A stretch of 53,572 nt of DNA from Neptuniibacter marinus (GTDB lineage: Bacteria; Pseudomonadota; Gammaproteobacteria; Pseudomonadales; Balneatricaceae): positions 1 through 53,572 of the forward strand of contig NZ_LUTR01000022.1 in NCBI RefSeq assembly GCF_001597725.1, written 5' to 3'. Below are positions 31,062-47,835 of this stretch, piece by piece. The position numbers and the translations under genes are program-made. The first letter of the stretch is position 1. Each line of letters begins with the position of its first letter. Under the pieces are notes generated by a model that worked only from the letters and a program-made list of their open reading frames with translations, ran no database searches and was not told the DNA's origin.

Positions 31062-31531
31062 ATGATACCTAGCCAAGAACAAGAAAAATGGATTTATAAA
31101 CACATGCTCATTAGCCGGTTTTTTGAGGAAACTATTGAGACGATTTATATGGAAGAAAAACCACCTGTCAATATGGCTAATCACTCTCTCCCCAGCGGAA
31201 TACGTTTTTCTAATGATCAAAAATCATGTGCAGTTGATGTATGTACCCTCCTTAACGCTGACGATATTGTTACCTCTACAGTGCAGCTTGATTGTGAAGC
31301 ATTGATTGAGCCAGTGAAAAAGGAAGGTCGTTTAATTGTTGTCGATGAGGATTATCACAGTTATGGCATGAGCGGTGAAATTATTGCCATTGTCGTTGAT
31401 GCCGGAGTGCCATTGAAAGCAGCGCCGCAGCGAGTTATAACCCAATTCCGTTTACCCCGCCAATGGAACAGTGGGCGCTTCCAAGCCCAGAAAAAATTAT
31501 CGAAGCTTTTAACAAAATGAAGGAAGTATAA
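31062..31531 (+). pseudogene. acoA/acoB deletion fusion remnant
   Basis: The first roughly 70 codons repeat the N-terminus of AcoA (MIPSQEQEKWIYKHMLISRFFEE) with many substitutions. After IVTST the reading frame jumps into the C-terminal part of AcoB (LDCEALIEPVKKEGRLIVVDEDYHSYGM). A short deletion near APQRV then shifts the frame, while the DNA beyond it stays nearly identical to the end of intact acoB up to its stop at 31531. About 1.5 kb of E1 coding sequence is missing, including the whole TPP site. A 152-residue chimera with a good ribosome binding site could still be made, but it could not be an E1 subunit. Confidence 0.88.
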
Positions 31532-31781: not shown

Positions 31782-32465
31782 ATGATAGATTCAGATGCAG
31801 ATACAATTAAAATAACGCCCCTTAAAGGTTTGAGAGGCATGATAGCGAATAACATGCGACGTAGTCTTGATGAAGCAGCACAGCTGACACATCACGCCGT
31901 ATGTTCAGTTGAAAATATGTGGTTACGTAAAGAAAAAATGGCAGAGCAGGGAGTGAATATCTCCATTGAAGACCTGCTAGCCGATTACCTTGTTCGTACA
32001 CTTAAAAAGCATCCAACAATGAATGGGCGTATTGAAGATGGAGAGATACGTGTTTATCGCAATATTGATTTGAGTTTTGCAATTGGCTTGCCCGGGGGGA
32101 AATTGATGGCCCCAGCTGTATTTGCTGCGGACCAAAAAGATCTCCAAGAGCGAGCTCTAGCACGACGTGATGCTTTGCAACGAGCTAAAACTGGAGGTCT
32201 GACTGTATCTGAAATGACGGGTGGTACCTTTACATTGACTAATATCGGTCGAAGTCGAGTTAGGTTTTTTACGCCTATTATCAATTTGCCTCAATTAGCT
32301 ATTTTAGGGGTAGGTGAAACTTATACCGATTTAGTTATTGATAATGGTCAGTTATCTGAAAAAAGAATGATGGGGTTATCGCTGACGTTTGACCATCGTG
32401 CAATTGATGGTGCACCTGCCGCGGACTTCCTATCTGACCTTTGTCAGGAAATTGAAAGTGAATAG
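31782..32465 (+). CDS. acoC: Stand-alone E2 acyltransferase catalytic domain
   Basis: The 227-residue protein is only the C-terminal catalytic domain of dihydrolipoamide acyltransferases (family 2-oxoacid_dh). It begins with a short linker and PLKGLRGMIANNMRRSL and ends with the active-site motif DHRAIDGAPAADFL (HxxxDG). A lipoyl domain and the peripheral E1/E3-binding domain are both absent, so the lipoyl group must come from the separate 76-residue protein. It has an AGGAG ribosome binding site. In E2 enzymes this domain transfers the acyl group from lipoamide to CoA. The symbol is tentative. Confidence 0.85.
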   Translation: MIDSDADTIKITPLKGLRGMIANNMRRSLDEAAQLTHHAVCSVENMWLRKEKMAEQGVNISIEDLLADYLVRTLKKHPTMNGRIEDGEIRVYRNIDLSFAIGLPGGKLMAPAVFAADQKDLQERALARRDALQRAKTGGLTVSEMTGGTFTLTNIGRSRVRFFTPIINLPQLAILGVGETYTDLVIDNGQLSEKRMMGLSLTFDHRAIDGAPAADFLSDLCQEIESE

Positions 32466-33868: not shown

Positions 33869-35449
33869 ATGTCTGCAAAATTTGATTTAAATGATGATAG
33901 CTTGGTAGTAATCATAGGTTCTGGTGCTGGTGGCGGCACATTAGCGAATGAGCTTGCGCAGAAAGGTATTCGTTCTGTTGTTCTTGAAGCAGGTAAACGC
34001 TTTAAAATGGATGATATAGAAAACGATGAATGGAAGATGTTTGGAAAAATCTCGTGGCTGGATAAACGCTATGTGGTTGGACCTGCACGAATTGCTGAAG
34101 ATTTTCCAAACTTACCTGCTTGGATAGTAAAAGGGGTAGGTGGTGCTACTATGCATTGGGCCGGTGTAGCGATGCGTTTTCAGGAACATGAGTTCAAAAT
34201 GAAAACGACCAACGGTACGGTGCCAGGAGCCAATGTTTTAGATTGGCCTATATCGCTTAAAGAAATGGAACCATATTACGTCAAGGCAGAGAAAAAAATG
34301 GGCGTCTGTGGTACCGAAGCTACAGGCATGCCTTATCACGGTAAAAGTAGTCATTACAAAGTGGTTGCTGAAGGGGCTAAACGTATTGGAGCTCGTTGTG
34401 AACAGGCTAAGTTAGCGATCAATACGGAAGTGCGTGATGGTCGTCCACCTTGTCAGGTTAATGGTTTCTGTATGCAAGGCTGTCGTATTGGTGCGAAATG
34501 GTCAACCATGTATACAGAGATTCCAAAAGCGGAAGCGACCGGTAATGTTGAAGTCCGCCCTCAATCTATGGTGCTTCGTATTGAGCATGACAAAACAGGT
34601 AAAGTCACTGGTGTTCTATATGCTGATAAAGATGGAAATCAGCAGCTGCAAAAAGCTCGAATTGTTGCGGTAGCGGGTAACTCAATTGAATCGCCACGTA
34701 TGCTTCTTAACTCTGAATCCTCTATGTTCCCTGATGGTTTAGCTAACTCCTCTGGTCAAGTGGGTCAAAATTATATGACCCATACAACTGGTGGTGTTTA
34801 TGCAGAATTTGAAAAGCCCGTACATATGTATAAAAGTACCGTTGTGCCGGGTATTGTGCATGAATGGAAGGATAATGATCCAACACGTGGGCACCTTGCA
34901 GGCTATGAATTAGAAATCCTTCATTTAGGTTTACCTTTCATGTCAGCGTTCCTTAATCCTGGTAAAGGTGGCTGGGGACGAGAATTAGCGGATTCACTTG
35001 CTAATTATGGCAACATGGCAGGTTTTTGGATCTGTGGTGAGGATATGGCGGTTGAATCAAACAATATAACGTTGCATGCAACTGAAAAAGATCAGTACGG
35101 TTTACCTGTACCCGTTGTTTATAAAACAGACCATATTAATGATACGCGTATGCGTAACCATGCATACGATCGATCAAAAGAGTTGTTCGATGCGGTTGGG
35201 GCACTGAAAGTGAATAACTTACCTCCGTACCCTGCGAGCCATAATATGGGTACAAACCGTATGAGTGAGCATGCACGTGATGGTGTAGTTAACCGTTGGG
35301 GGCAAGCCCATGATATTAAAAACCTGTTTGTATCAGATGGTAGTCAGTTTACCTCGAGTGGCACTGAAAACCCGACGTTGACCATTGTCGCGTTGGCAAT
35401 AAGACAGGCTGACTACATTGCTGATCAGATGAAGCGTAAAGAGATCTAA
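33869..35449 (+). CDS. GMC-family flavoprotein dehydrogenase (gluconate/sorbitol/alcohol DH large subunit-like)
   Basis: The 526-residue flavoprotein has the FAD motif VVIIGSGAGGGTLANELAQKG near the N-terminus, GVGGATMHWAGVAMRF near residue 95, and the C-terminal GMC region SHNMGTNRMSEHARDGVVN and DGSQFTSSGTENPTLTIVALA with the catalytic His/Asn zone. It lacks its own signal peptide, which fits export by the Tat partner just upstream. It would oxidise a sugar, sugar acid or polyol at the periplasmic face. The third, cytochrome c subunit common in this family is not encoded nearby. ATG 33869 follows GGGAGA. A terminator closes the unit. Confidence 0.85.
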   Translation: MSAKFDLNDDSLVVIIGSGAGGGTLANELAQKGIRSVVLEAGKRFKMDDIENDEWKMFGKISWLDKRYVVGPARIAEDFPNLPAWIVKGVGGATMHWAGVAMRFQEHEFKMKTTNGTVPGANVLDWPISLKEMEPYYVKAEKKMGVCGTEATGMPYHGKSSHYKVVAEGAKRIGARCEQAKLAINTEVRDGRPPCQVNGFCMQGCRIGAKWSTMYTEIPKAEATGNVEVRPQSMVLRIEHDKTGKVTGVLYADKDGNQQLQKARIVAVAGNSIESPRMLLNSESSMFPDGLANSSGQVGQNYMTHTTGGVYAEFEKPVHMYKSTVVPGIVHEWKDNDPTRGHLAGYELEILHLGLPFMSAFLNPGKGGWGRELADSLANYGNMAGFWICGEDMAVESNNITLHATEKDQYGLPVPVVYKTDHINDTRMRNHAYDRSKELFDAVGALKVNNLPPYPASHNMGTNRMSEHARDGVVNRWGQAHDIKNLFVSDGSQFTSSGTENPTLTIVALAIRQADYIADQMKRKEI

Positions 35450-35476
35450 GTTTTTTGACATTCCTATAGACCCTTT

Positions 35477-35501
35477 AGCACGCCTTATGGCGTGCTTTTT
35501 T
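35477..35501 (+). terminator. Intrinsic terminator of the GMC operon
   Basis: AGCACGCC/GGCGTGCT stem with a TTAT loop followed by a T run. Confidence 0.9.
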
Positions 35502-35519
35502 ATGTTTGTGCTTTCCTTA

Positions 35520-35548
35520 TTGTATCTATTCTTTGATCTTTCGATAAT
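35520..35548 (+). promoter_or_regulatory. Possible sigma70 promoter reading into the hairpin array
   Basis: TTGTAT and GATAAT are separated by 17 bp, directly after the GMC terminator and pointing toward the array of hairpins. It would start a transcript near 35555. It is a sequence match only. Confidence 0.4.
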
Positions 35549-35735
35549 GTTTATAAGACTAGGCGTCCATACAAATAATTGTTGACGTTTACTCTGTTTT
35601 ACACAGACGTAGTATCTACGCCTCACTCACTTTCTTGTATCTCGTCATTCTCTTTGAAAAGTTAATTTGCCTAGAGAATATTTGGCGTTGGATATGAGGG
35701 GAGCTAGGGCATTAATAAGGAGTATGGAAGGTGTT

Positions 35736-35769
35736 AAAAAAAACCGGCGACGTTTAGGCACCGGTTTTT
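35736..35769 (-). terminator. Minus-strand intrinsic terminator formed by first array hairpin
   Basis: Read on the minus strand, AAAAACCGG/CCGGTTTTT ends in eight T residues. It could end a transcript that runs through the hairpin array from the porin side. Confidence 0.6.
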
Positions 35770-36103
35770 AGTGAGCCATATTTAACAAAGGCTAGCTTCA
35801 TAGCTTGGGGGCGACGAAGTTAGTCAAGCTAGACTCTTACGTTTAGGATGTTTGAAGAGCCGCGACGTTTAAACGCTTACCTTCAAATTCAAGGTTTACA
35901 CTAAACAAACGCTAATGCTTGGGGAACAAAGTGATTGTTTTAGCTACCTGAGTATCCTGACGTATTGCGGGAACGGTGACGTTTAAACACCGATATCCCT
36001 AATAGAGTTTTAGTGATTGCTTACCGCTTGGGGGCGAAAAACCAGATCAATAAAACCCTATTTCTAGCAGTAAACATCAGAGACGTTTAAACACTGATGT
36101 TTA
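35739..36103. ncRNA. Seven alternating hairpins, candidate structured RNA
   Basis: Seven successive stem-loops occur at 35739-35769, 35792-35832, 35851-35887, 35901-35942, about 35969-35999, 36006-36056 and 36071-36103. The odd ones carry a GACGTTTA(AAC) loop and the even ones a GCTTGGGG(GCGA) loop, while the stem sequences all differ. That is the mark of conserved loops on diverged stems. On the minus strand the loops read GTTTAAACGTC and CGCCCCCAAGC, and the last hairpin then forms a terminator with eight T residues. The strand is undecided: a plus-strand promoter lies at 35520 with a terminator at 36184-36215, and on the minus strand the array would be a porin 3' region or a separate RNA. 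I do not recognise the family. Confidence 0.6.
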
Positions 36104-36183
36104 ACTGAGCCTCTGTACCTTACGATAAGTTCATGCTGTGAAAGTTATGAACATAGCGTATCTACATAGGCTTCTAGAACTGG

Positions 36184-36215
36184 AAAAACTAGCGGAGCTG
36201 ATCTCGCTAGTTTTT
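36184..36215. terminator. Bidirectional terminator-like hairpin
   Basis: AAAAACTAGCG/CGCTAGTTTTT, an 11-bp stem with a ten-base loop, is symmetric and can end transcription in both directions between the array and the porin gene. Confidence 0.65.
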
Positions 36216-36228
36216 GGTCGGGGTTATG

Positions 36229-36270
36229 GCTAAGCAGATGGCTCAGAAGGGGGTGAGAAATCTGCTCAGC
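36229..36270 (-). ncRNA. 3' hairpin of porin 1 with CCCCCUUC loop
   Basis: On the minus strand GCTGAGCAGAT pairs with ATCTGCTTAGC and an inner CTCA/TGAG stem closes a loop CCCCCTTC. It starts 22 bases after the porin stop codon. The same loop occurs after the second porin gene. Confidence 0.55.
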
Positions 36271-36291
36271 GATATTTAGCCCCTGTTTCTC

Positions 36292-37500
36292 TTAGAAAGC
36301 GAAGTTAACACCAATGTTGACCAGTGTTGTTTTTTCGCCCACTGGTGCTGGAGTCGCTACAATAGAAGTTGCATATTGTGAAACAGTGCTCATGCCTGCA
36401 TCGGAATCGACATAAGCCATTTGAGCGTACATGGTTGTAGAGTCACCCATAGTGTACTCATTACTAAGTACTAAAGACTTAGTTTCTGCACTTGTTGTAG
36501 GTGCATTATCTTCATTGATATAGTACGCAACGGTGGCTGTGTGTTTTGCCGCCCATTTCCAATCGACACCCATGCCTAGGGCATCAAGATCAAGGATTTC
36601 GTTGCCATTTTGATCGTTATTCTCAGTGTTCATGTAGTTAATCTTAAAAGTAAGATCACCCAAGTTGTAGGCCGCACCGGTTGCCCAGCTGGTGACTACA
36701 TCTTCACCTGTTTGTTGGTCATGCATATTCTGGAATGAACCAGACAGTGAAAGTGGGCCAGTTGTGTAAGCCGCGCCGATCGCAATTACGTCACCATCTT
36801 TTTGTGAACCTTCTTGGCCACCAAAAGAGTACAGAACACCAAAATCTAAGCCATTGATGTTGTTACGGTATTGAATCGCATTTTTGAAGAAAATACCGAC
36901 ATCATTGTTGGCATTACGGCCACCGGAACCTGCGTTGTTGATAGTGGAGAAGTATTGGCTGTAGGCCCAAGCGTACAGGTTGGAGAACTGCTCTTTAAAG
37001 ATGCGTGGTTCCGTTGCAAGGTGGGCAAGTAGTGCTGGCCCATATTGGCGACCTGCGATGACGGTACCCCAATCGCCTGTCAAACCTAAGTTAGCTTGAC
37101 GACGAAAAAGAATGTCGCCACTGCCATCATCAGCATCCGCTGTTGTAGTGTCACCTGTACCATGGAACATACCTGTATCTAGGTCAAAATGAGCTTCAAG
37201 GTTAAAGAACGCCTCCATGTCGTTATCTAAACTGCGGCTGCCTTTAAAGCCAATAACGGTCTGGCGCAAGCCACTTGTTTCAACGCCAACTTTTTCATTT
37301 CCGTTCGTAGTGACATTATCTTGTGCGAGAATACCTATATCTAAAATACCGTACATAGATAATTTAGTAGAATCTGTTTCACCGATAAGAATATCAGCAG
37401 ATACAGTGCTTGCAGTGGTGGATAGAAGAATCGCTGCTGTCAGCGCCTTAATAGGGCTGACCGTGCCAAGCTGAGCTTGGGATACCTTCTTAGCGTTCAT
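36292..37500 (-). CDS. Outer-membrane porin 1 (gram-negative porin, Porin_4 type)
   Basis: The 402-residue precursor has a signal peptide (about residues 1-35, ending STVSA) and a 16-strand-type beta-barrel pattern: YGILDIGILAQDN, SGLRQTVIGFKGSRSLDNDMEAFFNLEAHFD, LTGDWGTVIAGRQYGPALLAHL, and the C-terminal TLVNIGVNFAF ending in Phe as barrel proteins do. It is a general-diffusion or substrate-induced porin. Its ribosome binding site is GGGGAG. A sigma54 element and two activator-like dyads upstream place it in the alcohol-oxidation regulon. Confidence 0.87.
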   Translation of the reverse strand: MNAKKVSQAQLGTVSPIKALTAAILLSTTASTVSADILIGETDSTKLSMYGILDIGILAQDNVTTNGNEKVGVETSGLRQTVIGFKGSRSLDNDMEAFFNLEAHFDLDTGMFHGTGDTTTADADDGSGDILFRRQANLGLTGDWGTVIAGRQYGPALLAHLATEPRIFKEQFSNLYAWAYSQYFSTINNAGSGGRNANNDVGIFFKNAIQYRNNINGLDFGVLYSFGGQEGSQKDGDVIAIGAAYTTGPLSLSGSFQNMHDQQTGEDVVTSWATGAAYNLGDLTFKINYMNTENNDQNGNEILDLDALGMGVDWKWAAKHTATVAYYINEDNAPTTSAETKSLVLSNEYTMGDSTTMYAQMAYVDSDAGMSTVSQYATSIVATPAPVGEKTTLVNIGVNFAF

Positions 37501-46605: not shown

Positions 46606-47835
46606 TTAGAAGGTTACAGATGCTTCTACGATTAAACCGTCCCATTCTGTTCCGCCAGCAACACTAGAGTCTGTAGCGCCACCGCCGGAGAACTGATCTT
46701 CTTCCTGTTTAACATATTCAGCTTTAAACAGAGTAGAGTCGTTCATCCAGTAACCGGCACCAACCTGTAAGCGTGTAGCTTCGTTTGGACCGCTGATACC
46801 AGCACTTTTGTTTTCTGATTCTGCATAACGAGCAGCGACGTAGAAATCATTGCTGATATCGTATTTACCCTCGATTGACCAGAAGGCCATCTTAGATTTT
46901 TGTGCTACGTAGCTTGTCGAGGTTAAACCTGAGCCGCCTGCACCTTGGCCTACCCAGCTGTAATCATCTTCTGCTTGACCGATAAGGCCGTGTACAAGGA
47001 AGTTGTTAGCTTTATATTGCACATCAGCCTGCCAAATGAAGGCATCAACACCTGGAACGATCAGTGGGTGAGTTCCGCGTGCATTAACAGCAGTGTTTGC
47101 GAACTGGTAGTTGTCGCCATCACCAACAGCAATCAATGAACCAGCCGCTTTGCCAGCAACTGATGCTTGGTCGTGATTGGTTTTAAACGTACCTGCACCA
47201 AAAGAAAGACCGCTTTCTAGGTTAATGGTACCGCGTAAGCCCATGTTATAACCGTGACCGTCAGAGAAATCTGTGAAGAAGTCAGGTGTTGCTAGTACGG
47301 CATCCCATGTTACGTTTGTGCCGCTAGATAGATTATGAGAACCATAAGCCCATAGACCTTCCTCAGCAGTAATCATGTCGACTAGACCGTTACCTACAAA
47401 CGGGTTACTTTGTACAGCAGCACCATCTGAGTAGCGGATAAAGTTTTGAGTTGTTGAAATAACATTACCTAGGCGAACACCTGTGTTGCTAGGTAGGTCA
47501 AACTGAATCCAGCCTAAATCTTGGCTGATTGCAGCGCTGCCGTTACCCCAGTCGTTAGGTTCTTCAGATAACTCAGCGAATACGGAAACATTCTCAGATA
47601 TCTGCGCATTGATGTTTAATGCAAAGCGCATGCGTTGAAAAGCAGAATCTGCGGCTGCATCTGCAGAATTCGCAGCTGCTCCGTCTACTTCAATGCCTGA
47701 TTGCCATGCTTGCATAGCTGCGCCACTGATTTTTATTTTTCCATCCATGAATTCAGCAGCGTTTACTGTGGTTGCTGCAGTGGACATAGCAAATATTGCA
47801 GCAGCAACATTCATGTTTATTAGTGTTCGTTTCAT
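46606..47835 (-). CDS. Outer-membrane porin 2
   Basis: The 409-residue precursor has a signal peptide (MKRTLINMNVAAAIFAMSTAATTVNA) and a barrel pattern of alternating strands: KIKISGAAMQAWQSGIEVDG, FQRMRFALNINAQISENVSVFAELSEEPNDWGNG, LGWIQFDLPSNTGVRLGNVI, and the C-terminal GLIVEASVTF ending in Phe. It resembles alginate/phosphate-type or carbohydrate porins rather than the Porin_4 of porin 1. GGGGA is the ribosome binding site. A near-consensus sigma54 promoter precedes it. It probably admits the substrate of the dehydrogenases. Confidence 0.83.
   Translation of the reverse strand: MKRTLINMNVAAAIFAMSTAATTVNAAEFMDGKIKISGAAMQAWQSGIEVDGAAANSADAAADSAFQRMRFALNINAQISENVSVFAELSEEPNDWGNGSAAISQDLGWIQFDLPSNTGVRLGNVISTTQNFIRYSDGAAVQSNPFVGNGLVDMITAEEGLWAYGSHNLSSGTNVTWDAVLATPDFFTDFSDGHGYNMGLRGTINLESGLSFGAGTFKTNHDQASVAGKAAGSLIAVGDGDNYQFANTAVNARGTHPLIVPGVDAFIWQADVQYKANNFLVHGLIGQAEDDYSWVGQGAGGSGLTSTSYVAQKSKMAFWSIEGKYDISNDFYVAARYAESENKSAGISGPNEATRLQVGAGYWMNDSTLFKAEYVKQEEDQFSGGGATDSSVAGGTEWDGLIVEASVTF

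Follow-up and report, generated by a model that had tools for sequence, protein, structure and literature searches.

What do seven consecutive hairpins downstream of a porin gene in Neptuniibacter marinus encode, and on which strand? The stretch of DNA analysed here, hereafter the window, comprises 53,572 nucleotides of contig NZ_LUTR01000022.1. A preliminary description of its letters had proposed seven hairpins at about 55-bp steps, with two strictly alternating loops, as a candidate RNA of an unrecognised family, and had left the strand open. We consider it very probable that the locus is a candidate gene for a conserved structured RNA, of narrow known distribution, most likely located on the minus strand and provided with its own terminator.

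Architecture and strand of the array

The proposed array was recovered at 35739-36103, where seven inverted repeats spaced by about 55 nt carry loop classes in the strict order A-B-A-B-A-B-A. Read on the minus strand, the hairpins follow each other as A1-B1-A2-B2-A3-B3-A4. The features of the locus and of the porin genes discussed below are the following, with the hairpin numbers of the preliminary description in brackets.

46606..47835, minus strand: porin-like outer-membrane protein of 409 aa, Shine-Dalgarno CGGGGG; possible target
36292..37500, minus strand: porin (Porin_4), Shine-Dalgarno CUGGGGAG; possible target
36234..36265, minus strand: hairpin C, within the 3' UTR of the porin, with loop CCCCCUUC; found in 4/5 Neptuniibacter porin orthologues
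36184..36215, minus strand: hairpin resembling a terminator, belonging to the porin gene, with stem AAAAACTAGCG/CGCTAGTTTTT
36105..36178, minus strand: conserved leader stretch from the porin terminator to A1, with a predicted hairpin lacking loops A and B
35736..36103, minus strand: array of seven hairpins with U8 tail, running as RNA from 36103 to 35736
36072..36102, minus strand: hairpin A1 (7), loop UUUAAACGU
36004..36057, minus strand: hairpin B1 (6), loop GCCCCCAAGC
35968..35998, minus strand: hairpin A2 (5), outer arms changed and pairing restored in N. pectenicola
35890..35950, minus strand: hairpin B2 (4), loop UUCCCCAAGC, the weakest B stem of the window
35854..35884, minus strand: hairpin A3 (3), internal mismatches in the window, better paired in N. 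pectenicola
35781..35834, minus strand: hairpin B3 (2), loop GCCCCCAAGC, better folded on the plus strand when taken alone
35736..35769, minus strand: hairpin A4 (1) with U8, a Rho-independent terminator that includes loop A

The A loops count nine nucleotides, end with UAAACGU and are closed by a G-C pair. Their invariant part, TAAACGTC, occurs in 8 copies in the window for 1.5 expected (0/100 shuffles contained as many), and CCCCAAGC in 4 copies for 1.3 expected (5/100 shuffles). Within 35730-36110, there are four copies of one 8-mer and three copies each of four others; any 8-mer in four copies arose in 44/5000 dinucleotide shuffles of this segment, a test that is blind to alternation and pairing. 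The B loops share the core CCCCAA, followed by G or A and then by C. An additional TAAACGT-like motif at 35839-35846 (minus strand), between A3 and B3, probably lies outside the pattern because it is not kept in Neptuniibacter pectenicola, where its counterpart reads TTAGCGT.

As initially noted, no open reading frame accounts for the array, the longest one starting with ATG encoding 23 aa in the window; in N. pectenicola, one of 39 aa runs antisense to the array. The family also escaped recognition by Rfam 15 (4227 models), which gave 0 matches to the window at the gathering threshold and, once the search was relaxed to E<=10, three weak matches all scoring far under gathering.

Several observations favour the minus strand for the array RNA, which places it downstream of the porin gene. 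The stem of A4, AAAAACCGGUG/CGCCGGUUUUU, runs into eight U and forms an intrinsic terminator on this strand, a U8-tailed structure also kept in N. pectenicola and in a third Neptuniibacter genome (G001). Compared with shuffles, the array folds with a z-score of -5.2 on the minus strand and -2.1 on the plus strand, the gap being narrower over 36174-35735 (-5.3 vs -4.0), and it contains 14 G-U pairs if read on the minus strand vs 7 on the plus strand. Against this reading, B3 taken on its own is more stable on the plus strand. The strand, open in the preliminary description, is most likely minus. Single-hairpin z-scores on the minus strand were strongest for B1 (-4.3) and weakest for B2 (-0.9) and A3 (-0.8). 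Across the window, 25/820 window-strands were as structured as the minus strand of the array or more, so that the array is not extreme in this respect. No sigma-70-like site at 9/12 was found on the minus strand of 35400-36400, which displays weaker sites only.

Elsewhere in the window, a 152-aa open reading frame (31062-31520, plus strand) gave a partial Transketolase_C match just under the cut-off, and a 227-aa one (31782-32465, plus strand) encodes an acyltransferase domain alone, next to an open reading frame with a lipoyl-ligase domain. This domain content suggests a 2-oxoacid dehydrogenase cluster that has been reduced or has decayed.

Covariation and distribution

The whole seven-hairpin RNA is present in N. 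pectenicola (G004), at the same position as in the window, and this relative furnishes the strongest support that the array is real. The loops of the two species differ at 2/60 positions, while the arms differ at 24/88 positions for A and 13/66 for B (20-27%); over all aligned columns, 93/447 differ, 4 of these 93 being end gaps due to trimming. Pair counts for hairpins A, B and C lean to the assumed structures because they derive from loop-anchored alignments and structures named by the analyst: for the eight A hairpins of the two species, 88.6% of 88 cells pair standardly (0/500 shuffles), 15 cells are changed on both sides (0/500) and 7/11 pairs show a change on both sides (1/500). The covariation of the A hairpins reaches 0.552 vs 0.240 (0/500 shuffles). 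The B set also comprised eight hairpins, three from the window, three from N. pectenicola and two from G001; 71.6% of their cells pair (0/500 shuffles) and 16 cells are doubly changed vs 8.8 in shuffles (0/500). Seven B pairs carry a double change, a number that 157/500 shuffles reach, and the B pairing is therefore less certain than the A pairing. RNAalifold run on a longer B alignment returned no consensus structure. The earlier impression that the stems differ while pairing is kept extends to the relatives, where the covariation proposed as a check was found for A by cells and by pairs, and for B by cells but not by pairs.

Hairpin C, between the porin stop codon and the terminator, displays 5/10 pairs changed on both sides (1/500 shuffles). 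It is absent in one congener (G005); its conservation in the other orthologues suggests that the porin mRNA has a C-rich loop of its own.

The same comparison bears on the idea that the RNA forms loop-loop kissing complexes or multimers through palindromic A loops. Self-complementary GTTTAAAC occurs in 5/8 A loops (3/4 in the window, 2/4 in N. pectenicola), but the other three are non-palindromic at this place, both terminator loops among them, and it is UAAACGU that stays fixed. Kissing, put forward in the preliminary description, is not supported as a conserved feature and appears very unlikely to explain the array.

Of the 116 genomes of the family, 5/11 Neptuniibacter (counting that of the window) and 3 members of another genus have a close orthologue of the porin. 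In G001, the stretch downstream of the porin gene contains two B motifs placed in hairpins 73 nt apart, a hairpin with loop CACUCCCGGAU and a terminator, AAAAACCG...CGGTTTTTTTT, and no A loop. The GCCCCCAARC motif is present in 12 copies in this genome, the two array copies counted, and two copies in one stretch are therefore improbable by chance (~1e-6 by our arithmetic). Close pairs of the same motif in G002 and G009 were discarded, as they fall within open frames or at their ends. After the porin of the other genus (three genomes), C-runs occur in isolation, with neither an A loop nor paired B motifs. By these comparisons, the known distribution of the RNA is the full form in two species and a partial form in one.

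Two further Neptuniibacter, G003 and G005, possess the porin and have no array beside it. The fold z-score after the porin, in porin sense, is -0.2 in G003, which shows no excess structure, vs -5.3 in the window and -6.2 in G001. Since the porin of G003 is nearer to that of the window (90% identity) than the porin of G001 (86%), this single gene suggests that the RNA is older than the G001/G003 split and was then lost in G003. In the stretch that lacks the array, about 670-750 nt past the porin stop codon, G003 carries GCGATAA units head to tail (L055). In G005, the porin and the GMC gene are separated by a longer open stretch that seems to be a further gene (L056).

These genomes also weigh on a cis-acting interpretation, in which the array, together with hairpin C and the terminator, would constitute one long porin 3' UTR setting stability or termination of the transcript. 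The array lies directly downstream of the porin on the same strand, hairpin C is conserved and the array has no clear promoter, all of which suits this interpretation. Yet a terminator-like hairpin separates the porin from the array, 3' UTR protection needs no pair of fixed loop sequences, and the porins of G003 and G005 do without the array; we regard it as quite unlikely. In bacteria that use Hfq, 3'-UTR-derived sRNAs lie on the same strand after a gene and end at a U-tailed terminator. The array resembles them by its place after an outer-membrane protein gene and by its U-tailed end, and differs from them by the separate terminator-like hairpin in between and by its long repeat architecture.

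Beyond the genus, the exact A-B-A pattern was found in 390 genomes of the order only in the window genome (G000) and in G004, and a search of 57 genomes, the window genome included, gave G004 as its one other match; such A-B-A patterns could miss forms with B loops only. A tighter pattern retrieved 9 stretches of genome_contigs, with two matches in N. pectenicola and one in each of 8 unrelated records, for a chance expectation estimated at about 17. In viral_contigs, the one stretch retrieved had a single match and no array, and blastn against plasmids gave no match. The A-hairpin model, run on 11 Neptuniibacter, yielded 8 matches of 38.8-47 bits, all within the two arrays, the next best scoring 29 bits; of nine other loci displayed, four resemble plain terminators and five resemble single chance matches (one, L107, being incomplete and only approximately placed). 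With the B-hairpin model, the top scores in the 116 family genomes were the 8 known hairpins. Of 27 other matches for which a locus was given, 26 overlap open frames of at least 100 aa and one is single, the centres of L132 and L140 being approximate.

Could the array be a DNA element, either a dispersed repeat, a protein-binding array or a single-stranded DNA hairpin site? The A sites are near-palindromic and spaced by 104-115 bp, as such an element might require. On the other side, GACGTTTAAAC has 3 copies in the genome, all at the array, which also holds the four matches of the A-hairpin model below E 1e-6, and the G-U pairs and terminator suit an RNA. A dispersed repeat of the REP/BIME type was rejected, the array being confined to one locus instead of occurring in many copies. 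The match to a known repeat element that the preliminary description had allowed for did not materialise, and we consider a DNA element highly improbable.

Candidate function and targets

Structure, covariation, loop conservation, terminator, distribution, C-rich loops and G-rich porin Shine-Dalgarno sequences can be read from the DNA itself; transcription, action in trans, targets and repression are what we infer. Given the C-rich B loops, the C-rich loop of the 3' UTR and the G-rich Shine-Dalgarno sequences of the porins, we tentatively favour a trans-acting antisense regulator with C-rich loops, expressed from the minus strand. The regulatory RNA would be roughly 370-440 nt long and would end at A4, the intrinsic terminator with U8. 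It would start at a promoter of its own past the terminator of the porin gene or, alternatively, be cut out of a porin transcript that reads through this terminator. Function would reside in the loops, the stems serving as scaffolding. The three B loops, with their CCCCAA core, would act as antisense seeds that pair with G-rich ribosome-binding sites and impede translation; porin mRNAs, with their G-rich Shine-Dalgarno sequences, would be the most probable targets. Hairpin C, in the 3' UTR of the porin, may act likewise, as its CCCCUUC would pair with GAAGGGG in front of a porin paralogue. The A loops, four in number and found only in the window species and N. pectenicola, would form a second recognition module.

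To what extent do the leaders of these mRNAs agree? GGGG at positions -17 to -4 was found before 2/41 ATG open reading frames of the window, the porin and 46606-47835. The latter has no Pfam or NCBIfam match and is porin-like in the analyst's reading of its signal-like start and C-terminal F; its N. pectenicola orthologue (95% identity) also has a G5 Shine-Dalgarno. Over the window and the loci not fetched by a G-rich pattern, 17/264 open reading frames satisfied the GGGG test, corresponding to 7/7 orthologues of both window porins (five species for one protein, two for the other) vs 10/257 other sampled open reading frames. Among eight displayed loci of porin paralogues, GAAGGGGAA precedes the start in five (L047, L048, L050, L052 and L053); L051 lacks GGGG, L046 starts further upstream and L049 has no row. 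The GAAGGGG before the paralogue is the exact 7-nt complement of CCCCUUC in loop C. When 39 leaders of the window were ranked by duplex energy with the B loops, 46606-47835 took first or second place; the porin came eighth or fourth, with only 5-7 bp formed at its leader. The G-rich porin Shine-Dalgarno also occurs in the array-less species G003, G005 and G414, so it may mirror strong translation alone.

Genome-wide, CTTGGGG near ATG is little above its reversed-pattern control (56 vs 43 in the window genome; 60 vs 36 and 66 vs 39 in further counts), and most of the 14 stretches fetched among the CTTGGGG...ATG matches listed lie inside genes. GACGTTTA near ATG does not exceed its control (32 vs 29 and 25 vs 20), 30 of 57 GACGTTTA...ATG rows having been looked at. 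The candidate RNA probably regulates other messages, perhaps porin messages; that porins are its main targets seems rather doubtful.

The isc operon provided the best lead for loop A, with a loop A complement at iscA and a loop B complement at fdx, alike in both A-loop species. The 8-nt complement GACGTTTA overlaps the iscA start codon (G000:C50:12606-12627; G004:C2:12603-12624) and was also seen in 1/8 other congeners read. GACGTTTATG is found at the iscA start in G000, G004 and the array-less G010 (10 congeners read, G002 unmatched), and CTTGGGG at the fdx start in 5/10 congeners read (G005 unmatched), three of them array-less (G003, G008 and G009); it is absent from the fdx start of G001 despite its B loops. 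The operon was discarded as evidence for a target, the complements occurring in array-less congeners and missing in the B-loop-bearing G001. With this lead failing its control, loop A has no supported mRNA target among the inspected rows.

This result and the near-identity of loops carried on free arms, repeated four and three times, could fit a protein sponge, in which the two loop motifs would titrate one or two RNA-binding proteins and the repetition would reflect stoichiometry. CsrB and RsmZ titrate CsrA and CrcZ titrates Crc-Hfq in this way, by many hairpins that repeat one loop motif, GGA in CsrB/RsmZ and A-rich in CrcZ, whereas the array loops are C-rich and UAAACGU. Neither loop class contains GGA on the minus strand, and on the plus strand it occurs in B2 only; the CsrA-type loop binding first suggested by analogy is thus not indicated for the minus strand. 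With no candidate protein known, a short form in G001 entirely without loop A, and B loops composed like C-rich antisense seeds, a sponge is possible but, in our analysis, rather unlikely. An alternative use of both codes would be a bivalent scaffold, whose C-rich loops capture mRNAs while the interleaved UUAAACGU loops, at steps of about 55 nt, recruit a protein or RNA partner, thereby joining target and effector; we hold this for unlikely.

Relation to described RNAs and significance

The favoured antisense reading has its closest parallels in two described groups. The sX13 sRNA of Xanthomonas acts on G-rich mRNA sites through C-rich loops (PMC3771888). The array shares with it stable stems whose apical C-rich loops (CCCC and CCCCC in sX13) serve as recognition sites, a role that is putative here, and the G-rich motifs near the start codon of sX13 targets recall the G-rich Shine-Dalgarno sequences of the porin candidates (PMC3771888). 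At least four C in the loops of stem-loops, the structural feature of sX13-like RNAs, is found in the array, CCCC being present in 8/8 B loops and in loop C; this denotes a way of working and not a homology family. Unlike sX13, with three stem-loops at the polA locus, the array comprises seven hairpins after a porin and a second, alternating loop class (PMC3771888). It also resembles the alpha-r14 RNAs, e.g. NfeR1, in that several hairpins with differing stems expose an identical unpaired motif (PMC10746234). There, the motif CCUCCUCCC is borne by three hairpins of one loop class, whereas the array combines CCCCAA with a second class, UUAAACGU (PMC10746234); its loops, CCCCAA(G/A)C and UAAACGU, do not contain CCUCCUCCC in three hairpins. 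The likeness of the minus-strand B loops to C-rich sRNA seeds, anticipated in the preliminary description, is thereby reinforced.

In the portions of the literature retrieved by our searches, there was no description of this array RNA or of two alternating loop codes. We know of no described bacterial RNA in which two loop codes alternate; the elements of the architecture are of known types and, as far as known, their strict two-code alternation is new.

If transcribed, the array would offer a compact natural test of the division of labour among repeated loops of one RNA, with two strictly alternating loop codes on arms that can drift freely, and with a relative in which the C-loop code stands alone. 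It also suggests a rule, testable in culturable marine bacteria, that would associate C-rich loops beside a porin gene with G-rich Shine-Dalgarno sequences on porin mRNAs.
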